Assembly: GCA_026388365.1 (NCBI GenBank) | Contig: JAPLJW010000103.1 | Span: 1 to 13,827, forward strand | Reading direction: 5' to 3' | DNA: 13,827 nt | Source of the DNA: Deltaproteobacteria bacterium | GTDB lineage: Bacteria > Desulfobacterota > Syntrophia > Syntrophales > UBA5619 | Shown here: positions 1 to 11,198 of the stretch, one piece after another | Layout of the letters: the number at the start of each line of letters is the position of its first letter | Position numbering within the stretch: the stretch's first letter is position 1 | The notes under the pieces: generated by a model | Told to the model about the DNA's origin: nothing | Database searches by the model: none | Seen by the model: only the letters and a program-made list of their open reading frames with translations | Program-made: the position numbers and the translations under genes

Positions 1-645
1 CCCAGCGATTATCCAGAGCGGGTCGGGCAAAACTGGACAGGTGCATAAGTGAGAAAATTGCTCTATAATGAACCCCAGGAGGATCAGAATATGAGCAAAA
101 GACCAAGACGGAATCATGCACCGGCATTCAAGGCGAAGGTGGCGTTGGAGGCCCAGAAGGGTGACCAGACGATCGTTGAGCTTGCCGAGCGTTACCAGGT
201 GCATCCGAATCAGATTACAGACTGGAAGAAGCAGCTTCTGAAGCATGCAGAGGAAATATAGAGTAAAGATCGGAAACCTGATCAAGGGCCAATCGTCAAA
301 GATCTTCATGCCAAGATTGGGCAACTGTCGATGGAGAACGATTTTTTATCAAGCGCGCTCGGTCGCATCGGCGATTCGAGCGCAAAGAAATGATCGACAG
401 GACGGATGAACTTCCAGTGAAACGGCAATGCGAGATTCTGGAGCTTTCCCGATCCGGCATTTACTATACCCCAGTTCCCATCAGTGCGAAGTATTTGGAG
501 TTGATGGGTAAGATCGATGAGATTCATTTTGCCTATCCGTTCTATGGCAGCCGGAAGATTCGCAACGCTCTGTGGGCCAAGGGTTATGACATCGGACGTG
601 ACCGGGTACGTCGCCTGATGCGTCGGATGGGCATTGAAGCACGCT
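1..645 (+). mobile_element. IS3-family insertion sequence, decayed 5' part
   Basis: Two overlapping reading frames, orfA (91-393) and the start of orfB (from 390), have the order and overlap of an IS3-family element. Both are damaged: orfA has an internal stop and orfB loses its family sequence near 642, well before the DDE catalytic core. The window opens inside or at the left end of the element, so the left inverted repeat cannot be defined. The right edge near 645 is placed where orfB similarity stops, and no right inverted repeat or target duplication was seen. The family assignment rests on the HTH protein and the orfB N-terminus; I would not name a specific IS. Confidence 0.8.
91..393 (+). 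pseudogene. IS3-family transposase orfA, in-frame nonsense codon
   Basis: OrfA is the helix-turn-helix DNA-binding subunit of IS3-family transposases. The start at ATG 91 follows a strong AGGAGGAT ribosome site at 77-84. Residues 1-56 carry the family pattern FKAKVALEAQKGDQT then VHPNQITDWKKQLL. A TAG at 259-261 interrupts the frame, but reading on gives the expected leucine-zipper-like half (KDLHAKIGQLSMENDFL, ending SSAKK) to a TGA at 391-393. The whole frame is 100 codons plus stop, the usual orfA length, so this is a full-length gene with a point nonsense change and no deletion. The stop overlaps the orfB start as ATGA, suggesting the original element used translational coupling. It should now give only a 56-residue fragment. 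Confidence 0.85.
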
Positions 646-716
646 ACGTAACTATGTGCTGGGATTCAAGTGGTAATCATCACCTCAATTCCAAATCGAA
701 AACCTTTGACTCGTAG
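390..716 (+). pseudogene. IS3-family transposase orfB, truncated
   Basis: OrfB is the catalytic subunit of IS3-family transposases. The frame opens at ATG 390, overlapping the orfA TGA. Residues 1 to about 84 match the orfB N-terminal HTH_21 region: LPVKRQCEILELSRSGIYY, then YPFYGSRKIRNAL and RVRRLMRRMGIEA. After about position 642 the sequence changes to an unrelated tail of about 22 codons ending at the TAG 714-716. The whole rve/DDE integrase core, usually about 190 more residues, is absent, so no activity is expected. The break marks a deletion or a later rearrangement. I could not identify the DNA that replaced it. Confidence 0.85.
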
Positions 717-2337: not shown

Positions 2338-3615
2338 TTGAAACAAACAGACCTCAAGAACGGTCGGCGGAACCCGGAGAAATCCTCCCTGCGGATTTGT
2401 CTTCTCACCTACCGCGGAAACCCCACATGCGGGGGGCAGGGGGTGTACGTCAAATACCTGAGCCGGGCGCTCCGGGACCTCGGACACGAAGTCGATGTGC
2501 TGTCCGGGCCTCCCTATCCGGAGCTCGATGAAGGCATCGCCCTCCACAAAATCCCCGGCCTGGACCTCTACAATCCGGAACATCTCTTCAAGGTCGCTAA
2601 CATCCGGGATCTCTCCTCGCTGCTCAACCAGTTCGAATTTCTCAGCATGTGTTCCGGGGGATTCCCGGAACCTCTCACCTTCGGGTTCCGCGCCCACCGC
2701 TATTTGCGCAGGGTCCGGAACGGATATGATATCATCCATGACAACCAGAGCCTCTCCTACGGCCTGCTCGGCATCGCTGAGGGCGGCTATCCGACGGTGG
2801 CCACCATCCACCACCCGATCACCGTGGACCGGGATACGGAGGTCGATGCGGCGGGAAGCTGGCTGCGCCGGATGAAGGTCAGGCGCTGGTATTCGTTTCT
2901 GACCATGCAGAAGCGGGTCTCCCGGCGGATATCGAAGATCATCACCGTCTCCGAATGTTCGAAGCGGGACATCGGCCGGGAGTTCCACCTGCCCGCCGAG
3001 AGTTTCAGTGTTGTTCCGAACGGGATCAACACGGATTATTTTTATCCGCTGGACGGCATGAAACGGGCGGATGACCTGATCCTGGTAACGAACAGCGCCG
3101 ACACGCCGCTCAAGGGACTGCGCTATCTCTTGGAGGCGATCGCAGAGATCCGCCGGGAAAGGGCGGTCCGCGTCGTCGTCATCGGGAAACCGAAGGAGAA
3201 CGGAGTGATCGAACGCCTGGTCGCGGAACTTTCACTGGGCGATGCGGTCCGTTTCACCGGTCGGATTGCGGATCGGGAGTTTGCCCGTTATTACGCGGAG
3301 GCGGCAATGGCCGTCATCCCCTCTCTCTATGAGGGGTTCGGCATGCCGGCCGGCGAGGCGATGGCCTGCGGCGTGCCGGTGATCAGCACATCGGGCGGCG
3401 CGCTTCCCGAGGTGGTGGGGGATGCCGGAATCCTGGTGCCGCCGGGGGACGCAGCGGCCCTGCGGGATGCCATTGCGGCCCTGCTGAACGATCCGGAAAG
3501 ACGCATGAGACTCGGCGAGGCGGGGCTTGCGAGGGTTCGTAATTCGCTGACCTGGCGCCACGCCGCACAGAAAACCGTCGAGGTTTACCGGGAGGCGATC
3601 GATGCTCACGGTTGA
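2338..3615 (+). CDS. Glycosyltransferase family 4 (GT-B fold)
   Basis: This 425-residue cytosolic enzyme is predicted to move a sugar from a nucleotide-sugar donor. It has a GT4-type N-terminal acceptor domain with glycine loop CGGQGVYVKYLSRAL (residues 31-45), the linker VVPNGINTDYF (225-235), and the C-terminal donor domain with the EX7E motif YEGFGMPAGE (E332, E340) followed by GVPVISTSGGALPEVV. The chosen start is TTG 2338, 7 nt after GGTGGGAG; the upstream extension from 2239 looks non-coding. The 3' end overlaps the next gene by 14 nt. The stretches GGFPEPLTFGFRAHRYL and VATIHHPITVDRD resemble, from memory, a glycosyltransferase common in actinobacteria beside the same two following genes. 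No membrane segment is seen. Sugar and acceptor are unknown. Confidence 0.9.
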   Translation: MKQTDLKNGRRNPEKSSLRICLLTYRGNPTCGGQGVYVKYLSRALRDLGHEVDVLSGPPYPELDEGIALHKIPGLDLYNPEHLFKVANIRDLSSLLNQFEFLSMCSGGFPEPLTFGFRAHRYLRRVRNGYDIIHDNQSLSYGLLGIAEGGYPTVATIHHPITVDRDTEVDAAGSWLRRMKVRRWYSFLTMQKRVSRRISKIITVSECSKRDIGREFHLPAESFSVVPNGINTDYFYPLDGMKRADDLILVTNSADTPLKGLRYLLEAIAEIRRERAVRVVVIGKPKENGVIERLVAELSLGDAVRFTGRIADREFARYYAEAAMAVIPSLYEGFGMPAGEAMACGVPVISTSGGALPEVVGDAGILVPPGDAAALRDAIAALLNDPERRMRLGEAGLARVRNSLTWRHAAQKTVEVYREAIDAHG

Positions 3616-4309
3616 CTTTAGTCAGATCCCGCTGCGGGCGGGAATGCGGGTTCTTGATGCCGGATGCGGAAGCGGGAGACATCTCTGCGAGTCGTTCCGG
3701 ACGCCGGGCGTCGATGTCGCCGGTGTGGATCTGAAACTGGATGATCTGGGCAAAACGAGGGGATTTCTCTCGCTGATGGCGAAGGAACAGAAAGGGCGCT
3801 GGCTCGTGGCGCAGGCCGATGTCACGAAACTGCCCTTTGCAGACGGCAGCTTTGACATTGTCATCTGTTCCGAAGTTCTGGAGCACATCGAGGACAATAG
3901 GACCGCCGTCGCAGAACTCGTCCGCGTTCTCAAGCCCGGCGGGGATCTGGTCGTCACGGTCCCGCGCTTTGGACCGGAGCGGATCTGCTGGGCTATTTCC
4001 CGGGCCTATCACCGCGAGCCCGGCGGCCACATCCGGATCTATCAAAAGCAAGAACTGATGGACCTTCTGGAAGCGGCAGGCGTTCGTTGCCGGCGGATCC
4101 ACTACCGGCATGGTCTCCATGCCCCCTACTGGTGGCTCCGTTGTCTCGTGGGACACAAGAATGAAACCTTTTGGCTGGTCAAGGCATATCGGAAGTTTCT
4201 CGAATGGGACATCACCCGGCATCCCCCGCTGACGGCCTGGATGGATCGGATTTTGAACCCGCTGATCGGCAAGAGCATTATTTTCTATCTGAAAAAAGGA
4301 TACCGCTGA
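3602..4309 (+). CDS. Class I SAM-dependent methyltransferase
   Basis: The 235-residue protein has a Methyltransf_11 layout: motif I VLDAGCGSGRHL (residues 17-28), acidic post-I residue in GVDL (D43), FDIVICSEVLEHIED (84-98) and LKPGGDLVVTVPR (110-122). The second half (REPGGHIRIYQKQEL, GLHAPYWWLRC, ILNPLIGKS) lies outside the generic fold and recalls a methyltransferase that follows this glycosyltransferase in actinobacteria; this is memory, not a search. ATG 3602 follows GGGAGGCG about 4 nt upstream and lies 14 nt inside the preceding gene, so the two are probably co-translated. It probably methylates the sugar product or its acceptor. Methyl site unknown. Confidence 0.9.
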   Translation: MLTVDFSQIPLRAGMRVLDAGCGSGRHLCESFRTPGVDVAGVDLKLDDLGKTRGFLSLMAKEQKGRWLVAQADVTKLPFADGSFDIVICSEVLEHIEDNRTAVAELVRVLKPGGDLVVTVPRFGPERICWAISRAYHREPGGHIRIYQKQELMDLLEAAGVRCRRIHYRHGLHAPYWWLRCLVGHKNETFWLVKAYRKFLEWDITRHPPLTAWMDRILNPLIGKSIIFYLKKGYR

Positions 4310-5418
4310 TGGAACTCCCCCTTTCGCAAGGCCTTGCCCAGTCACCCGTCGATGTGAACGTCATCGCGGATTTTATCGCCGCTGTACAAAAACCGAATGG
4401 AGAAATCCCCTGGTCCGTCGGCGGCAAGACCGATCCTTGGGATCACGTGGAAAGCGCGATGGGGCTCAGCGTCGCCGGACGTCTCCGGGAGGCGGAGAAT
4501 GCCTATCGCTGGATGGAATCGACGCAACTGCCCGACGGGAGCTGGTGGTCGGCAACCCGGGATGGCGTTCCGGAGGACAAGACCCGCGACAGCAACGTCT
4601 CTTCCTACATCGCCGTCGGGGCTTACCATCATTTCCTCATCACAGGCGAGCTCCGTTTTCTCCGGCGGCTGTGGCCGACGCTGGAGGCGGGTATCGATTA
4701 CGCCGTCGGACTTCAAGCGGATACCGGAGAAATCGCCTGGGCCAGGAGCAGCGAGGGCATTGTCGATCGGATGGCGCTTCTGACCGGCTCCAGCTCGGTC
4801 TATATGAGCCTCAAGTGCGCCCTCGCCATCGCCTCGCTTTTGGGGAAGAGACGTTCGGACTGGAAATCGGCCAAACAGAAGCTGGGCGAGGCGATCCGCT
4901 ATCGTCCCAACCTGTTCAATATGATGAAGGCGCGCTATTCGATGGACTGGTACTACCCCGTGCTCTGCGGCGCCGTGACCGGCGCCGAGGCCCGCAAACG
5001 GATCGATCGCTCCTGGGAAAAGTTCGTCGTACCCGAATGGGGGGTGAAGTGCGTCTGCGATCAGCCCTGGGTCACGATTGCGGAGGCCTCCGAACTGATC
5101 CTGACGCTGGCGGCGGTTGGAGAATACGAGCGGGCGGCCATCGTCTTCAACTGGATCCGCGACAAGAAATACGATGACGGCGCTTATTGGATGGGGGTGA
5201 CCTTCCCCGACGGTGTGATCTGGCCGGAGGAGAGGACCTCCTGGACGGCGGCGGCCGTTCTGCTGGCCCACGACGCCCTCCACGACATCACGCCGGCAGG
5301 CCGTCTATTCAGCCACAGCTTCTGGAACGGAAACGGAATTTCCCGGAAGTGCAAAAGGACCTCCTTTGATGCATCCGATCGTCGGAACCGATCCGCTTTC
5401 CATACGAGTCGAGGTTGA
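4309..5418 (+). CDS. Prenyltransferase-like alpha/alpha-toroid protein
   Basis: The 369-residue protein belongs to the type usually labelled prenyltransferase by fold (six-hairpin or terpenoid-cyclase-like toroid). Repeated helical hairpins and Trp/Gly-rich turns are visible: KPNGEIPW, LPDGSWW, DSNVSSYIAVGAYHHF (residues 94-109), ALLTGSSSVY (156-165), MDWYYPVLCG (212-221), CDQPWVTIAEASEL (250-263) and DDGAYWMGVTFPDGVIWPEE (289-308). I see neither the DXDD motif of class II cyclases nor a clear zinc site of protein prenyltransferases, so prenyl transfer is doubtful; a carbohydrate-active (GH-like) role fits the Asp/Glu/Trp motifs better. ATG 4309 overlaps the upstream TGA by 1 nt, after AAAGGA. 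The tail after about residue 334 (S/R-rich, 35 residues) looks unlike the rest and may not belong to the fold. Confidence 0.8.
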   Translation: MELPLSQGLAQSPVDVNVIADFIAAVQKPNGEIPWSVGGKTDPWDHVESAMGLSVAGRLREAENAYRWMESTQLPDGSWWSATRDGVPEDKTRDSNVSSYIAVGAYHHFLITGELRFLRRLWPTLEAGIDYAVGLQADTGEIAWARSSEGIVDRMALLTGSSSVYMSLKCALAIASLLGKRRSDWKSAKQKLGEAIRYRPNLFNMMKARYSMDWYYPVLCGAVTGAEARKRIDRSWEKFVVPEWGVKCVCDQPWVTIAEASELILTLAAVGEYERAAIVFNWIRDKKYDDGAYWMGVTFPDGVIWPEERTSWTAAAVLLAHDALHDITPAGRLFSHSFWNGNGISRKCKRTSFDASDRRNRSAFHTSRG

Positions 5419-5423
5419 TTTCC

Positions 5424-6146
5424 GTGCGGAGAGATCATCGCCCCCATATCCTCAAACGTCTCGACCTGAATTTTCAGAAATGGTACGCAAACTATTTTCT
5501 CCGCACGCAGTTTGAACATCTCGGCCGGGGGTGCACCTTCATGAAACCCTGGCATGTCGAGATATTCGGCGGACCCGTCACCCTGGGGGACTATGCCACC
5601 GTCATTGCCACACCCGATCGTAAGATCCGGTTGACCGTCTGGTCTGTTCTGGGGGGGGAGGGAAGAATCGAGATCGGGAGCTGTTGCCTCATCTGTCCCG
5701 GTGTCCGGATCAGCGCCGCCACGGAGATTGTGATCGGGGAGAGCTGCATGCTCGCCCAGGGGGTCTTTGTGACCGATTCGGACTGGCATGGTGTTTACGA
5801 CCGGAGCCTTCCGATCGGCCAAACGGTTCCCGTTTATATCGGGAAAAATGTCTGGATCGGGGACAGCGCCATCGTCTGCAAGGGGGTCCGGATCGGCGAA
5901 AACAGCATCATCGGCGCCGGTTCCGTGGTGGTCCGGGATATCCCCGCCAATGCGGTGGCCGCGGGAAATCCGGCCATCGTCTTAAAATATCTCGATGCCG
6001 ACAGGCCGGTAAAGACGCGGGCCGACTGGCTGGCCGACCCCGGGGCGCTCGCTGCCCAGTTCGAGGAGATCGATCGTCATTTCATGAAAAACAACACCTG
6101 GCTGGGGTGGCTCCGCTCGCTCATCCTTCCCAGAAAGGGGGATTGA
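5424..6146 (+). CDS. Left-handed beta-helix acyltransferase (WbbJ/maltose-acetyltransferase type)
   Basis: A 240-residue hexapeptide-repeat O-acyltransferase, normally a trimer using acetyl-CoA. Hexapeptide turns run from about residue 82: IEIGSCCLICPGVRISAAT, IVIGESCMLAQGVFV, then YIGKNVWIGDSAIVCKGVRIGENSIIGAGSVVVRD in successive turns, closing with IPANAVAAGNPA. The loop TDSDWHGVYDR (residues 117-127) holds H122, where this fold keeps its catalytic histidine. The N-terminus (LNFQKWYANYF, FMKPWHVEIFG) is an extra cap. The start is uncertain: GTG 5424 has GAGG 9 nt upstream and is preferred; TTG 5415, overlapping the upstream stop, would add three residues. It is the last gene of the operon, with a perfect long hairpin starting 2 nt after its stop. 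It probably O-acylates the glycoside made by the upstream genes. Confidence 0.85.
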   Translation: MRRDHRPHILKRLDLNFQKWYANYFLRTQFEHLGRGCTFMKPWHVEIFGGPVTLGDYATVIATPDRKIRLTVWSVLGGEGRIEIGSCCLICPGVRISAATEIVIGESCMLAQGVFVTDSDWHGVYDRSLPIGQTVPVYIGKNVWIGDSAIVCKGVRIGENSIIGAGSVVVRDIPANAVAAGNPAIVLKYLDADRPVKTRADWLADPGALAAQFEEIDRHFMKNNTWLGWLRSLILPRKGD

Positions 6147-6147
6147 T

Positions 6148-6190
6148 GGGAATAGGGGGACACGATGCCGCATCGTGTCCCCCTATTCCC
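6148..6190. repeat. Perfect CCG-loop palindrome after the operon
   Basis: Arms 6148-6167 and 6171-6190 are exact 20-bp inverted copies around the loop CCG. The inner part, GGGGACACGATG-CCG-CATCGTGTCCCC, shares the tip and G/C blocks with the elements at 1369 and 8758, while the outer arm (GGGAATAG) is unique. There is no T-run, so it is a repeat element rather than a standard terminator, though it would still protect or terminate the transcript ending 2 nt before it. Confidence 0.85.
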
Positions 6191-6296: not shown

Positions 6297-7937
6297 ATGA
6301 AGGTCGCCATTGTCGCACCGCCCTATCCGCTGGAAGAGGCGCCCGCGCCGCCGCTCGGCGTGACCTATGTAGCCGCTGCTTTCGAGTCGGCCGGCGCGGA
6401 AGTACGGATTTATGATTATATCGTCAGCCGCTACACACCGGAAAAAATCCGGATGCAGATCGACGCCTTCCGGCCTGATGTCCTTGGAGCGACCTCCGTA
6501 ACACTGAATTTCCCGGGAGCCGCGGAGATCGTTTGCGAGGCCAAACGGCATCGGCCCTCGCTCATCACCTTGATGGGGGGACCCCACGTCTCCTTTGCCG
6601 CCGAACAGACGCTGAAAGAGTATCCGGGGATTGATCTGATCGTGGCTGGGGAAGGGGAGGGGACGATCGCCGAACTGATGGCCGAGGGGTTCCGTCCCGA
6701 AAAATGGGAAAAGATCCCGGGACTGAAATTCCGCCGTAACGGCAGCATCATCGATACCGGCCCCCGTCCTTTCATCGAAGACCTCGATACACTGCCGCTC
6801 CCCGCGCGCCATCTTCTCCCCTTGTCGCGCTATCAGGCACTCGGTTATTCGATCAGCATCGTCACCTCCCGCGGCTGCCCCTATTCCTGCATCTTCTGCC
6901 AGGGACGCCGCATGGTCGGGAACAGGGTCCGGCTGAGAAAGGCTGCCCTGGTCGTGGACGAGATCGAGGAGATTCTCTCCTACGGCATCGATCGGATCAA
7001 CGTGGCGGACGATCTGTTTGTCTCCAGCCGGGGGAAGGTGAAGGAGGTCTGCGACGAGATCCTTCGTCGCGGTCTCCGGTTTTACTGGAGCGCCTTTGCC
7101 CGGGTGAATACCGTGGACCTGGAAACCTTGAAGCTGATGCGGGAGGCGGGCTGTGACAGCATCAGTTTCGGGGTGGAAACGGGAAATCCGGAGATGCTGA
7201 AGCTGATCCGCAAAGGGATTACGCTGGATCAGGTCCGGCATGCGGTATCCCTCTGCCGGGAGGCGGGAATCATCGCCCACACCTCCTTCATTGTCGGCCT
7301 GCCCGGCGAAACGTCGGAGACCCTCCGGGAAACAGGGAAGTTCGCAGCAAGTCTCGGTTCGCTGTATGGATATCATTTCCTGGCCCCCTTTCCCGGCACG
7401 ACGGTCCGCGATGAGGTGGAGAAGTACGATCTGGAAATTATGACCGACGATTGGACCCGGTATGACGCGAACAGCGCCATTGTGCGGACCGCCGCCCTTG
7501 CTCCAGAGGAGATGAACCGTTTCGTGGCGGATTTCGAAGGCATGATCACAAAGGCCTGGGAAGAGATGGTTCAGGGATATCATGACAGAACCAACACGCC
7601 TGGGATTGACATGCAGGTCGAAGGTCATTTCCGGATGAAGCTGGTCTATCGCCTGCTTTCGGAAGATCTCATCGAAAAACTGGGCGCTTTTCCGGCGTCG
7701 GATTCCGTCCAAAGGGCGGACTTGCTCCAGGAGACGCTTTGCCGCCGGATCGAGGAAAAGGCCGGTGTCGAGGGGGGGCTCATCCGCCGGACGATCCGGG
7801 GATTCGTCGAAAAGGGTTACCTCCGCGCCGTGATCTCCGACGGGGAATGCCGCTGGCATTGGACGCACAACAACCGCATCGACCGTCTTTATGCGGAACC
7901 TGACTCAACCGCCGATCCCGGTCCATCGATCCCTTGA
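6297..7937 (+). CDS. B12-binding-domain radical SAM protein
   Basis: This 546-residue enzyme has an N-terminal cobalamin-binding-type Rossmann domain (residues 1 to about 165: VAPPYPLEEAPAPPLGVTYVAA, LMGGPHVSFAAEQTL, AGEGEGTIAEL) without the base-off DXHXXG motif, as is usual in the BchE-like group. The radical SAM core has the [4Fe-4S] motif RGCPYSCIFC (C194, C198, C201), then ADDLF (238-242), FGVETGNPEML (291-301) and a FIVGLPGET motif (331-339). A C-terminal alpha-helical extension completes it. ATG 6297 follows AGGTGA by 7 nt. Such enzymes methylate unactivated carbon or phosphorus, or form rings. The gene follows the glycosyltransferase operon after 150 nt and a hairpin, so it may be separately expressed. 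Its last 49 nt overlap the opposite-strand methyltransferase. Substrate unknown. Confidence 0.9.
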   Translation: MKVAIVAPPYPLEEAPAPPLGVTYVAAAFESAGAEVRIYDYIVSRYTPEKIRMQIDAFRPDVLGATSVTLNFPGAAEIVCEAKRHRPSLITLMGGPHVSFAAEQTLKEYPGIDLIVAGEGEGTIAELMAEGFRPEKWEKIPGLKFRRNGSIIDTGPRPFIEDLDTLPLPARHLLPLSRYQALGYSISIVTSRGCPYSCIFCQGRRMVGNRVRLRKAALVVDEIEEILSYGIDRINVADDLFVSSRGKVKEVCDEILRRGLRFYWSAFARVNTVDLETLKLMREAGCDSISFGVETGNPEMLKLIRKGITLDQVRHAVSLCREAGIIAHTSFIVGLPGETSETLRETGKFAASLGSLYGYHFLAPFPGTTVRDEVEKYDLEIMTDDWTRYDANSAIVRTAALAPEEMNRFVADFEGMITKAWEEMVQGYHDRTNTPGIDMQVEGHFRMKLVYRLLSEDLIEKLGAFPASDSVQRADLLQETLCRRIEEKAGVEGGLIRRTIRGFVEKGYLRAVISDGECRWHWTHNNRIDRLYAEPDSTADPGPSIP

Positions 7938-8572
7938 CATCCGGTGAGAAGGCCTGCCGATAACCTGCGCAGCACGCCCAGCGTACGGGTCATGGGCAGC
8001 TCCTCGAAGAGACCGGAGTCGAGGGCCATGCGATAGATGCAGCGGGGCGCCTGGCCTCCCTTTTCCGGGTCGGAAAAGATATCATGGATGACGAGGTATC
8101 CTCCCGGGAGGAGATGGGAGACCCAGGCGTTGTAATCGGTGAAAGCCGCCTCGAAGGTATGGCCGCCGTCGATGAAAATCAGGCTGAGCGGCGTGTTCCA
8201 GAAGCGGGCAACGACCGCTGAACGGGAGATGATCGGAATGACCGTCTCATCGAGACCCAGTTCCCGGATTGTATTCCTGAACGCGGGGAAGGTGTTGACC
8301 CGCCCCGTCACCGGGTCCAGGAGCTCGGGATCGAAATATTCCTGACCCGGCTGCTGCTCTTCCGACCCCTCGTGATGGTCGATGGAAAACAGAACCCCGC
8401 CTTCTTCCCGGCATCCGAGTCCCAGATAGGCGGCGGAGCAACCGCAGTAGCTGCCGATCTCCAGGCAGGGACCTCGCCGGGCGGCGTCCCGGGCCAGTTC
8501 GTACAGACGGGCGGTTTCCTCACCGGCCATAAATCCCTTGAAATGCATCCGCTTGAGTTCATCGATATCCAT
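7889..8572 (-). CDS. Class I SAM methyltransferase, Methyltransf_24/CmcI-like
   Basis: The 227-residue protein has motif I CLEIGSYCGCSAAYLG (residues 36-51), the acidic residue in FSIDHHEG (D65), and the family signature LIFIDGGHTFEAAFTDYNAW (131-150) with D135 and H138, followed by LLPGGYLVIHDIFSDPEKGG. These are typical of Methyltransf_24 O-methyltransferases, often found in antibiotic and polysaccharide clusters. ATG 8570-8572 is chosen; GTG 8573-8575 directly before it is also possible, as AAGGAAGG lies upstream of both. The TAA is at 7889-7891, inside the convergent radical SAM gene, so the last 15 or so codons of each gene are mutually antisense. A possible upstream attenuator lies at 8658-8687. 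Confidence 0.88.
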   Translation of the reverse strand: MDIDELKRMHFKGFMAGEETARLYELARDAARRGPCLEIGSYCGCSAAYLGLGCREEGGVLFSIDHHEGSEEQQPGQEYFDPELLDPVTGRVNTFPAFRNTIRELGLDETVIPIISRSAVVARFWNTPLSLIFIDGGHTFEAAFTDYNAWVSHLLPGGYLVIHDIFSDPEKGGQAPRCIYRMALDSGLFEELPMTRTLGVLRRLSAGLLTGCQGIDGPGSAVESGSA

Positions 8573-8657
8573 CACTCTTGGCCTTCCTTCCTAACAGCCG
8601 TCGACCGGTTGCGCATCCCTCAATCCCCACCTTATGGGCGGAGACAGGGGGCGCAAT

Positions 8658-9113: not shown

Positions 9114-11198
9114 ATGCACGCAAAGATCAAGAAGAGAGACGGCCGTCTGCTGAAGTTCAACGCGGAAAAGATCACCAATGCCATCGCGAAGGCGGGAGCG
9201 GCAAGCGGCGAGTTCGAGCATTCGGTCGCCAAGACCCTGACCATCCGCGTTCTGAGTCTGGCCGAAAAGATCTTTGACCACCGGATTACGACGGTCGAGG
9301 AAATTCAGGACATCGTCGAGGAGGTTCTCCTCTCTTCGCCGTATCGCAAGACGGCGAAGGCCTACATCATCTATCGCGAGCAGCATGCCCGTCTCCGGGA
9401 AATCACCAACAAGATGGAGGTGGATCTGGTCGATCAGTATCTCAAAAAAATGGATTGGAAGATTCACGAAAACAGCAACATGGATTACTCTCTCCAGGGA
9501 TTGAACAATTACATCTCCTCCGAGGTCAGCAAGGTCTACTGGCTCAATGAGATCTATTCGCCGGAGATCCGCAAAGCCCATTCGGAGGGAGATTTTCATA
9601 TCCACGATCTCAGCCTGCTTTCGGTTTACTGCGTGGGGTGGGATCTCTACGATCTGCTCATGGAGGGATTCCGCGGGGTCTCCGGCAAGGTGGAGAGCAA
9701 GCCGGCCAAGCACCTCCGCAGCGCGCTGGGCCAGGTGGTCAATTTTTTCTATACCCTTCAGGGCGAAGCCGCCGGGGCACAGGCCTTTTCAAATTTCGAT
9801 ACGCTGCTCGCCCCCTTCATCCGCTACGACAAGCTGAGCTATCAGGAGATCCGGCAGGCGCTTCAGGAGTTCATCTTCAATATCAATGTTCCCACCCGGG
9901 TGGGTTTCCAGACGCCTTTTACCAACGTGACGCTTGATATGACCGTGCCGCGTGCCGACAAGAATGTCATTGTCGGCGGCAAACCGCAGCAGGAGATCTA
10001 TGCTGATTTTCAGGAGGAGATGAACCTGTTCAACAAGGCATTTCTCGAGGTCATGGCGGACGGCGATGCCAAAGGGCGTGTTTTTACCTTCCCGATTCCC
10101 ACTTACAGCATCACGAAGAATTTCAAATGGGATGATCCGAAATTTGATGGCCTCTGGGAAATGACGGCGAAATACGGCGTGCCCTATTTTTCAAATTTTA
10201 TCAATTCGGATATGAATCCGGAGGATGCCAGAAGCATGTGCTGCCGGCTGCGGATCGACAACCGAGAGCTTCAGAAACGGGGAGGGGGACTTTTCGGTTC
10301 GAATCCCCTGACGGGCTCTATCGGGGTGATCACGATCAATATGCCCCGAATCGGTTATCTGGCGGATGCGGAAGAGGCCTTCATGGAGCGTCTTGAAAAA
10401 TTAATGGTCACGGCCAAGGAGAGCCTTGAAGTCAAAAGAAAGGTGCTGGAGAAATTTACCGACGGAAACCTCTATCCCTATACGAAGCACTACCTCAGAA
10501 ATGTCAAGGAGCGGTTCGGTGAATACTGGAAAAACCACTTTTCTACCATTGGCCTCGTCGGGATGAATGAGGCCTGCCTCAACCTCCTCGGTCAGAACAT
10601 CACGACCCCGGAAGGGCAACGGTTTGCAAAAAAGACCCTGGATTTCATGCGCAACCACCTGGTTCAGTTTCAAAAGGAGACGGGAAACAACTACAATCTG
10701 GAATCGACACCGGCCGAGGGGACCTCTTATCGTCTTGCCAAGTCCGACAAGGAGAAATACCCCGACATCCTCTGCGCCAATGAGGAGAATTGCAGGGCGA
10801 GAAAGGCAGAGCCTTTCTATACGAACTCGACGCAACTGCCCGTGAACTTTACCGATGACGTTTTTGAGGCCCTCGATCTGCAGGATGAGATCCAGTCCAA
10901 ATACACCGGCGGGACGGTTTTCCACACCTATGCGGGGGAGCGCATTTCCGACCCTCGGGCCGTGAAGACCCTGGTCAAGAAGATCTGCACAAATTATCAT
11001 CTCCCCTACCTGACCTTTACCCCCACCTTCAGCATCTGCCCCTCGCACGGTTATTTGAACGGAGAGGTGGCGACCTGTCCGACCTGTAAAGAGGCCTGCG
11101 AGGTCTACTCCAGGGTGGTGGGATATCTCAGGCCTGTCAAGCAATGGAACAAGGGAAAGCAGGCGGAGTTTAGCCTCAGGAAAGAATACCGATTCTAA
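9114..11198 (+). CDS. nrdD: Anaerobic (class III) ribonucleoside-triphosphate reductase
   Basis: NrdD reduces ribonucleoside triphosphates to deoxy forms in anoxic cells, using a glycyl radical. The 694-residue protein begins with an ATP cone (about residues 3-92, KIKKRDGRLLKFNAEKI), the allosteric activity site. The catalytic barrel follows, with HIHD before C173 (LLSVYCVGWDL), C376-C377 (SMCCRLRID) and GGLFGSNPLTGSIG. The C-terminus has a four-cysteine zinc site (C642, C655, C658, C662) and the glycyl-radical segment RVVGYLRPV with G670, followed by the usual WNKGKQAEF end. ATG 9114 has GGGAA 6 nt upstream. The gene is whole, with nothing missing. It is followed after 2 nt by its activase. 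Promoter and NrdR boxes lie directly upstream. Confidence 0.97.
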   Translation: MHAKIKKRDGRLLKFNAEKITNAIAKAGAASGEFEHSVAKTLTIRVLSLAEKIFDHRITTVEEIQDIVEEVLLSSPYRKTAKAYIIYREQHARLREITNKMEVDLVDQYLKKMDWKIHENSNMDYSLQGLNNYISSEVSKVYWLNEIYSPEIRKAHSEGDFHIHDLSLLSVYCVGWDLYDLLMEGFRGVSGKVESKPAKHLRSALGQVVNFFYTLQGEAAGAQAFSNFDTLLAPFIRYDKLSYQEIRQALQEFIFNINVPTRVGFQTPFTNVTLDMTVPRADKNVIVGGKPQQEIYADFQEEMNLFNKAFLEVMADGDAKGRVFTFPIPTYSITKNFKWDDPKFDGLWEMTAKYGVPYFSNFINSDMNPEDARSMCCRLRIDNRELQKRGGGLFGSNPLTGSIGVITINMPRIGYLADAEEAFMERLEKLMVTAKESLEVKRKVLEKFTDGNLYPYTKHYLRNVKERFGEYWKNHFSTIGLVGMNEACLNLLGQNITTPEGQRFAKKTLDFMRNHLVQFQKETGNNYNLESTPAEGTSYRLAKSDKEKYPDILCANEENCRARKAEPFYTNSTQLPVNFTDDVFEALDLQDEIQSKYTGGTVFHTYAGERISDPRAVKTLVKKICTNYHLPYLTFTPTFSICPSHGYLNGEVATCPTCKEACEVYSRVVGYLRPVKQWNKGKQAEFSLRKEYRF

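Follow-up and report, generated by a model that had tools for sequence, protein, structure and literature searches.

Background

MMP (3-O-methylmannose polysaccharide) has so far been viewed as a polymer that mycobacteria and related bacteria make, and the published descriptions of an MMP-type, fatty-acid-binding sugar polymer that we found come from actinobacteria only. According to the 2023 study in which the MMP gene set of nontuberculous mycobacteria was worked out, this set consists of ManT, pMeT3, MmpH and MeT1, with pMeT3 putative even in mycobacteria, and the search range of that study comprised mycobacteria, eight related actinobacterial species and the genus Hoyosella (PMC9883506). 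Here we analysed a window (the whole stretch of DNA under study, 13,827 nucleotides) in which homologs of all four MMP enzymes are found between positions 2338 and 8575, a region that in our assessment is probably a locus for a cytoplasmic acylated MMP in a probable Syntrophales host. A preliminary description had taken the first three genes for a triad without an assigned product; the module corresponds to the pathway by which nontuberculous mycobacteria make MMP (PMC9883506).

Gene content and organisation of the locus

All four ORFs of the proposed tightly packed block are present (Table 1). In the ORF list, the glycosyltransferase and methyltransferase genes overlap by 14 nt and the methyltransferase and toroid genes by 1 nt; the junction between the toroid and hexapeptide-repeat genes is a 4-nt overlap if translation starts at TTG 5415, or the previously noted 5-nt gap if it starts at GTG 5424. 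Pfam and NCBIfam searches placed three of the block genes in the GT4, class I methyltransferase and hexapeptide-repeat families. The limit formerly set at 6146 was too narrow, as the gene block continues to 8575 with the radical SAM gene and, on the minus strand, a fourth pathway gene, the MeT1 relative, both overlooked when the triad was correctly picked out. The MeT1 gene is convergent with the radical SAM gene, overlapping it by 49 nt.

Table 1. Features of the locus, numbered by position in the window
Feature	Position	Strand	Description
ManT relative	2338..3615	+	GT4 glycosyltransferase, predicted GDP-mannose-dependent alpha-(1->4)-mannosyltransferase, TTG start
pMeT3 relative (putative)	3602..4309	+	Class I methyltransferase, predicted mannose 3-O-methyltransferase
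MmpH relative (toroid)	4309..5418	+	Predicted endo-alpha-(1->4)-mannosidase recycling the polymer
Hexapeptide-repeat protein	TTG 5415 or GTG 5424 to 6146	+	Predicted O-acyltransferase
Perfect palindrome	6148..6190	.	Arms of 21 nt, 1 nt between; 3' of the acyltransferase stop
B12-binding radical SAM protein	6297..7937	+	Pfam B12-binding and Radical_SAM
MeT1 relative	7889..8575	-	Predicted reducing-end 1-O-methyltransferase

The sequence of the palindrome was absent from all other loci compared. An Rfam scan of the window at the gathering threshold returned nothing, and a promoter and terminator scan showed no excess over shuffled sequence. Other genes in the window encode HAD-like, NrdD, NrdG-like and HD-domain proteins. 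A search of a plasmid collection returned one record.

Homologs of the four MMP enzymes

The glycosyltransferase is a homolog of ManT for which mannosyltransferase activity is predicted. A PDB search returned 7QSG (ManT) with an E-value of 1.4e-111, the next match being at 4.5e-31, and the two proteins share 47% identity over 402 residues. Of the ManT residues compared, Lys240, Glu313, Gly314 and Phe315 are kept and Leu317 is replaced by Met. Bit scores also favoured ManT (377) over alpha-maltose-1-phosphate synthase (61), and in a phylogenetic tree the protein grouped with actinobacterial ManT, separate from tandem paralogs, with support of 100/100.

For the toroid, the PDB search yielded 7QSJ (MmpH) at 2.4e-100 and the next match at 0.013. 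Identity to MmpH was 49% over 320 residues, and nine of the ten active-site residues named in PMC9883506 are kept, including all three catalytic residues (Glu262, Asp47 and Asp50 of MmpH, corresponding to E259, D42 and D45 here). In an alignment of 84 MmpH sequences, E259, E262, W44 and Y216 were present in every one and D42 and D45 in 83. We therefore assign the protein as an MmpH relative and predicted endo-alpha-(1->4)-mannosidase. A terpene cyclase or prenyltransferase toroid was rejected, with no Pfam match found for the protein and PDB matches consisting of MmpH and, weakly, a putative alpha-rhamnosidase. The earlier view that the toroid lacks a cyclase identity thus held at the level of sequence, whereas its chemistry need not be left open, the closest solved relative being the endo-alpha-1,4-mannosidase MmpH.

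The methyltransferase encoded at 3602-4309 occupies the position of the putative pMeT3 in the locus-tag order of M. hassiacum, between ManT and MmpH. It showed 46-47% identity to the methyltransferase at the same position in Nonomuraea L081, a comparison with an actinobacterial relative rather than with the mycobacterial sequence. Its PDB matches were to general methyltransferases only, and its score gap to paralogs was narrow among the sampled genomes. Assignment as MeT1 was rejected: the MeT1 structure was matched by the product of the minus-strand gene and is absent among the 35 PDB matches of this methyltransferase. The minus-strand product matched 6G7D/6G80/6H40, which we take to be MeT1, at an E-value of 2.8e-59, with the next match at 0.3, and it is 51% identical to a convergent homolog adjoining MmpH in Nonomuraea L081. 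It is accordingly a MeT1 relative by sequence, with predicted activity as a reducing-end 1-O-methyltransferase.

Co-occurrence, linkage and spread

Co-occurrence, for which the Fisher values ignore the relatedness of the genomes, was examined in 198 sampled genomes of a related phylum group. MmpH was found in 25, MeT1 in 24 and ManT and pMeT3 in 22 each, every one of these being an MmpH genome. In the 11 genomes where MmpH lies apart from ManT, the set of ManT, pMeT3 and MeT1 was nevertheless complete (11/11), and in Desulfobacterales-type genomes the genes are spread over two or three places. One genome with all of these genes is that of the isolate Desulfoluna spongiiphila AA1 (L069), which has MmpH, the acyltransferase, ManT, pMeT3 and MeT1; butyrate is used by two of the three Desulfoluna strains described in PMC7031245, AA1 being the one that does not use it. 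The proposed co-occurrence of the triad was confirmed, as was, for the most part, its adjacency: ManT, pMeT3 and MmpH lie together in most related loci compared, beyond what chance would give.

Nonomuraea L081, an actinobacterium, has the same gene layout, with the first three genes in the same order and a methyltransferase that starts MLTVDF, in agreement with the earlier statement that the triad is common in actinobacteria. The suggestion of a transferred functional module was upheld for a conserved module common with actinobacteria; transfer between phyla itself is plausible, in either direction. Of actinobacterial sequences, two were available for the comparison, and two MmpH rows of the tree had very long branches. 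One locus (L014) was assigned to Nitrospirota, where MmpH occurs in 1 of 245 genomes, namely its own; binning error is likely because the contig is only 5.6 kb. In three loci (L069, L071 and L073) MmpH and the acyltransferase are divergent from FadB-like and thiolase genes, an arrangement that favors a role in lipid metabolism. Since these loci form one clade, their FadB and thiolase neighbors represent a single event, and four other loci are near Hsp20 and Lon genes instead.

The hexapeptide-repeat protein matched Pfam Hexapep (E 6e-14) and, by sequence against the PDB, maltose transacetylase (E 1.4e-18); the best NCBIfam name, WbbJ, was below cut-off. Its D-W-H residues were invariant in 14/14 aligned sequences. 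The predicted structure had a mean pLDDT of 63.7 and gave no PDB match at an E-value of 0.001.

Proposed pathway and alternative explanations

The analysis shows gene content, homology, active-site conservation, co-occurrence and linkage; every reaction, the acylation of the product, its location in the cytoplasm and its role in lipid metabolism we infer, and for this phylum the product itself is a prediction. In the proposed pathway, GDP-mannose would be the donor from which ManT extends short methylmannosides by alpha-(1->4)-linked mannose, and pMeT3 would methylate O-3. MmpH would cleave completed chains to yield defined oligomers, which would act as primers for the next ones, making the process self-recycling, and MeT1 would add a 1-O-methyl cap to the reducing ends so released. 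The predicted acyltransferase would place esters on some of the hydroxyls, so that the polymer would resemble the acetylated MMP of Streptomyces griseus. The product is probably a cytoplasmic, acylated MMP, in line with the acylated, methylated glycoside anticipated in the preliminary description. In hosts turning over fatty acids, it would serve to bind long-chain acyl-CoA, either as a buffer or for delivery.

The same gene families could instead make a related intracellular methylated glycan that differs from MMP in sugar, linkage or methyl position, which we regard as unlikely. The identity of only 47-49% to the characterised ManT and MmpH is consistent with such a product and counts against acylated MMP; paralogous GT-GT-methyltransferase loci without MmpH exist, which shows that other products can be made with pairs of the ManT/pMeT3 type. 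However, the four MMP enzymes occur together, the MmpH active site, expected to contact the polymer, is nearly invariant, and ManT falls with its actinobacterial counterparts, away from the paralogs. It is highly improbable that the genes belong to a lipopolysaccharide or capsule locus and serve to export a methylated glycan to the cell surface. Genes for GT4, methyltransferase and hexapeptide acyltransferase proteins are common in such loci, and WbbJ was the best NCBIfam name, but reading of the window ORFs and Pfam searches revealed no flippase, polymerase or polysaccharide exporter, the neighboring genes are those listed above, and no signal peptide was seen in the MmpH relative by reading. 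This explanation, named beforehand as one that would count against a new glycoside operon, was therefore rejected.

Somewhat less unlikely, and still doubtful, is a plain MMP operon in which the acyltransferase and the radical SAM gene are neighbors with no action on the polymer. The radical SAM gene, which 36 of the 49 sufficiently flanked loci contain, is set off from the block by the palindrome and 150 nt, and more distant copies occur in genomes without MmpH; five of the 25 MmpH genomes lack an acyltransferase match, and one locus (L076) carries ManT-pMeT3-MmpH without it. Against this, the acyltransferase gene abuts or nearly abuts MmpH (within 266 nt in 48/49 loci with enough flank) and accompanies it where ManT and MeT1 sit elsewhere. 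It was found in 20/25 MmpH genomes and in just 1/173 without MmpH, that single genome being a point against an acylated product.

What would be new is a variant of the known MMP pathway in anaerobes, many of them fatty-acid-degrading, in which a modified polymer is likely made. Relatives of Smithella and Syntrophus are known for fatty-acid or alkane oxidation, and to our knowledge these anaerobes are without fatty acid synthase I. A complete pathway in anaerobes, Smithella and Syntrophus relatives among them, offers an independent setting for testing the purpose of the polymer, and genes that so far carry only a generic family name would gain a function. We tentatively suggest, as a possibility short of an even chance, that in fatty-acid-oxidising anaerobic Desulfobacterota a self-templating acylated methylmannan may carry or buffer long-chain acyl-CoA for beta-oxidation, with general acyl-CoA handling as the original role and the mycobacterial link to fatty acid synthase I as a later use.

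Comparison with known systems

By homology to MmpH, the toroid would share the (alpha/alpha)6 barrel and catalytic base of clan GH-L (GH15, GH125), as described in PMC9883506, but it is only a weak profile match (37 bits, where the cut-off is 821). The same source reports a proteobacterial 3-O-methylmannose homopolymer, the O-specific methylmannan of Oligotropha carboxidovorans, which has alpha-(1->2) linkages and belongs to the LPS, in contrast to an intracellular alpha-(1->4) polymer. MGLP (6-O-methylglucose lipopolysaccharide) of mycobacteria is likewise a polysaccharide that is polymethylated, alpha-(1->4)-linked and esterified with acyl groups and that binds long-chain fatty acids, but it is a glucose polymer made by other enzymes. 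The expected product resembles AMMP of Streptomyces griseus, an acylated methylmannan whose structure has been reported in limited detail; we found no acetyltransferase named for it in the literature consulted, and the present locus offers a candidate MMP acyltransferase. Closest is the mycobacterial MMP cluster, with which the locus has in common homologs of all four genes (that of pMeT3 being putative), the order of the first three and the MmpH active site. It differs in belonging to another phylum, in having MeT1 2.5 kb away on the opposite strand and in carrying the hexapeptide acyltransferase and B12 radical SAM genes between MmpH and MeT1.

Identification of predicted pathway genes in the window

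Four closely packed genes for a glycosyltransferase, a methyltransferase, a toroid protein and an acyltransferase, on which the preliminary description had been based, were confirmed in the window at the coordinates in the table. The first two genes overlap by 14 nt and the second and third by 1 nt. Two starts are conceivable for the acyltransferase: TTG 5415, which would make it overlap the end of the toroid gene, and GTG 5424, 5 nt past the toroid stop codon. In the related loci L066 and L069, this frame has no start codon before the position equivalent to GTG 5424.

Comparison with all solved structures matched the toroid protein to 7QSJ (E 2.4e-100; next match 0.013) and the glycosyltransferase to 7QSG (E 1.4e-111; next match 4.5e-31), identified in PMC9883506 as methylmannose polysaccharide hydrolase (MmpH) and ManT, both from Mycobacterium hassiacum. 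The triad, previously described as having no assigned product, thus matches the pathway for 3-O-methylmannose polysaccharide (MMP). Beyond position 6146 the block continues with a B12-binding radical SAM gene and a minus-strand methyltransferase. The latter matched 6G7D, 6G80 and 6H40 (E 2.8e-59; next match 0.3), named in the database merely as 'Methyltransferase domain protein', which we take to be MeT1, a 1-O-methyltransferase. The module proposed in the preliminary description is real, but its extent was incomplete, MeT1 having been overlooked as a fourth gene. PDB matches of the methyltransferase at 3602-4309 were all to general methyltransferases; its position corresponds to that of the putative pMeT3 (04403), which by locus tag stands in M. 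hassiacum between ManT (04402) and MmpH (04404), with MeT1 (04405) next; the tags given for M. smegmatis put MmpH and MeT1 in reverse order (PMC9883506).

Features of the window
Feature	Position (nt)	Strand	Remark
ORF of 108 aa, HTH_21 domain	390-716		at window edge
HAD-like gene			upstream of block
ManT relative	2338-3615	+	glycosyltransferase
pMeT3 relative	3602-4309	+	methyltransferase
MmpH relative	4309-5418	+	toroid protein
Acyltransferase	5415-6146	+	
Perfect palindrome	6148-6190		43 bp, 21-nt arms
B12-binding radical SAM gene	6297-7937	+	
MeT1 relative	7889-8575	-	methyltransferase; convergent to radical SAM gene, overlaps its end
NrdD gene			downstream of block
NrdG-like radical SAM gene			downstream of block; named by reading and position
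GAF/HD-domain gene			downstream of block

Window MmpH shares 49% identity with 7QSJ over 320 residues and retains nine of the ten active-site residues named in PMC9883506, Phe102 being replaced by Val97. The base Glu262 is kept as E259 and the candidate acids Asp47 and Asp50 as D42 and D45. Among 84 MmpH relatives with at least 80% query cover, E259, E262, W44 and Y216 were present in all and D42 and D45 in 83; in MmpH of Nonomuraea (L081) the second Asp is replaced by Asn. ManT is 47% identical to 7QSG over 402 residues, with Lys240, Glu313, Gly314 and Phe315 kept and Leu317 changed to Met. A tree of 35 ManT-like proteins placed the window and actinobacterial ManT apart from tandem paralogues (support 100/100); the MmpH tree contained two very long rows. 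The locus likely represents a variant of the known MMP pathway to which an acyltransferase gene is linked. To our knowledge, the MMP pathway is not known in this phylum. Literature searches for MMP or methylated polysaccharide in Deltaproteobacteria, Smithella and sulfate-reducing bacteria gave nothing beyond PMC9883506, most subscription papers being out of reach.

The block and the genes around it, ten in all, are arranged alike in L001, which comes from a Syntrophaceae metagenome assembly and has a 92% identical MmpH; the host thus probably belongs to Syntrophales. The palindrome, which stands between the block and the radical SAM gene, was not found in any other related locus compared and could be a REP-type element. 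The ORF at the window edge resembles the start of an IS3-type transposase.

Co-occurrence of the pathway genes

All genes were searched in the same 198 genomes from the phylum of the L016 genome, taken as Desulfobacterota, with score cut-offs chosen after the scores were seen. MmpH matched in 26 genomes at E 1e-3, of which 25 were kept and G092 (8.5e-4) was dropped. MeT1 matched in 43; the 24 retained (at least 52% identity, set off by a wide gap) all have MmpH. For ManT, 33 genomes matched at E 1e-60, and the 22 with at least 53% identity all have MmpH; G137 has a partial match (45-46%) near its MmpH, and ten further genomes with matches at 39-46% all lack MmpH. pMeT3 also matched in 33 genomes (E 1e-40), all 22 with E <1e-65 having MmpH and G137 matching at 40%; the ten MmpH-less genomes noted for ManT matched again, at 39-46%, and this gap is so narrow that identity alone does not separate genomes with and without MmpH.

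Conversely, among the 25 MmpH genomes, MeT1 is missing from G137 alone and counted ManT and pMeT3 from G048, G137 and G194. Relatives of both lie beside MmpH in G137; contig ends are the likely reason for the other two cases, since MmpH starts at contig base 82 in G194 and its match in G048 comprises just 50 residues. Fisher tests for co-occurrence with MmpH gave p values from 7e-19 (radical SAM) to 5e-30 (MeT1), which are not true probabilities because the genomes are related. Of the 24 MeT1 genomes, 18 have MeT1 and MmpH on the same contig, no more than 14 kb apart (MmpH being a fragment in G048 and G077); in the other six they are far apart or on different contigs. MmpH was sampled in two phyla, these 198 genomes and 245 from the phylum of the L014 genome, taken as Nitrospirota, where the only match was the starting genome itself. 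L014 is a Syntrophales-like MMP locus with 67-68% identity to the window; its short contig (5622 bases) was assigned to a genome labelled Thermodesulfovibrionia, likely through a binning error.

Related loci were the best 80 of 349 confirmed relatives and hence lean to close kin. In eleven of them (L065, L066, L067, L069, L071, L073, L074, L075, L077, L078 and L080), neither ManT nor MeT1 lies on the available flank of MmpH, which is short downstream in L073 and L080; a pMeT3 copy stays near MmpH in L077. Their whole genomes all encode MeT1 (52-63%), ManT (54-60%) and pMeT3 (45-54%), so that the genes are not scattered independently over genomes; ManT adjoins pMeT3 in all eleven, with MeT1 beside them in four. 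A set that stays whole although scattered argues for one pathway more strongly than mere adjacency would. Assembly error does not explain the splitting, as L069 comes from Desulfoluna spongiiphila AA1, an isolate, and a single 3.4-Mb contig holds L016.

The linked acyltransferase and radical SAM genes

Among named families, the hexapeptide acyltransferase comes closest to WbbJ, at a score below cut-off, and to maltose O-acetyltransferase. A D-W-H motif is invariant in 14/14 aligned sequences; the structure model of the protein was of too poor quality for use. Of the 49 loci that extend from MmpH by 2.5 kb or more upstream and 5.5 kb or more downstream, 48 have the acyltransferase, which starts no more than 266 nt from the MmpH match, compared with 40 for ManT, 41 for pMeT3, 36 for the radical SAM gene and 28 for MeT1 within 8 kb. 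In the set of 198, the acyltransferase is carried by 20 of the 25 MmpH genomes and by one of the other 173, and it stays behind MmpH even where ManT is elsewhere. Acetylated MMP has been reported from Streptomyces griseus with limited structural detail, and the literature examined names no acetyltransferase for it.

The radical SAM gene was found at 52% identity or above in 17 of the 198 genomes, all with MmpH; more distant copies (36-47%) turn up where MmpH is absent. Eight of the ten genomes with ManT-like matches and no MmpH (G020, G021, G058, G059, G093, G122, G175 and G189) carry such a distant copy on other contigs, and the protein may belong both to the MMP pathway and to the sister module of these genomes. 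In L147, L148, L149, L151 and L158, from genomes without MmpH, two tandem ManT-like glycosyltransferases (39-46% to ManT) precede a pMeT3-like methyltransferase; L150 has a single glycosyltransferase. Two more upstream genes in L149 and L151, accompanied by another methyltransferase, resemble ATP-grasp proteins of the D-Ala-D-Ala-ligase type (with a Pfam check for L149). This sister module possibly makes another methylated glycan.

Proposed pathway and link to lipids

In mycobacteria, according to PMC9883506, MmpH cuts MMP into primers that ManT elongates from GDP-mannose, MeT1 caps fragments whose reducing end is free, and 3-O-methylation is likely the task of pMeT3; a mutant in mmpH made no MMP and grew more slowly at 15 degrees. 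The same cycle of cutting, extension, capping and 3-O-methylation would run in the host of the window, with acylation as a probable addition. From the literature and host life style, we infer a lipid role of the polymer. MmpH and the acyltransferase are in L069, L071 and L073 transcribed divergently from a FadB-like gene, which encodes 3HCDH and ECH domains and is followed by a thiolase gene; this beta-oxidation pair lends genomic support to a lipid role in one lineage, counting once because the three loci form one clade. L065, L066, L067 and L078 instead have a conserved run of MFS-type transporter, Hsp20 and Lon protease family genes downstream of the acyltransferase, the families being assigned by clustering with a Pfam check in L066 only. 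Upstream of ManT, 28 of the best 80 of 349 loci have a PHP-domain family member and 14 have a hotdog thioesterase (for example, L058 1745-2395 and L051 4892-5290).

Comparison with actinobacteria

The one actinobacterium compared, Nonomuraea gerenzanensis (L081), encodes ManT (48% identity to the window), the methyltransferase (46%), MmpH (43%) and MeT1 (51%). Its methyltransferase begins MLTVDF, so the actinobacterial triad named in the preliminary description, including this start, is borne out. MeT1 is convergent and downstream of MmpH in L081; between the two stands a DUF1702 gene (10148-11155), in the place that the genes for the acyltransferase and the radical SAM protein take in the window.
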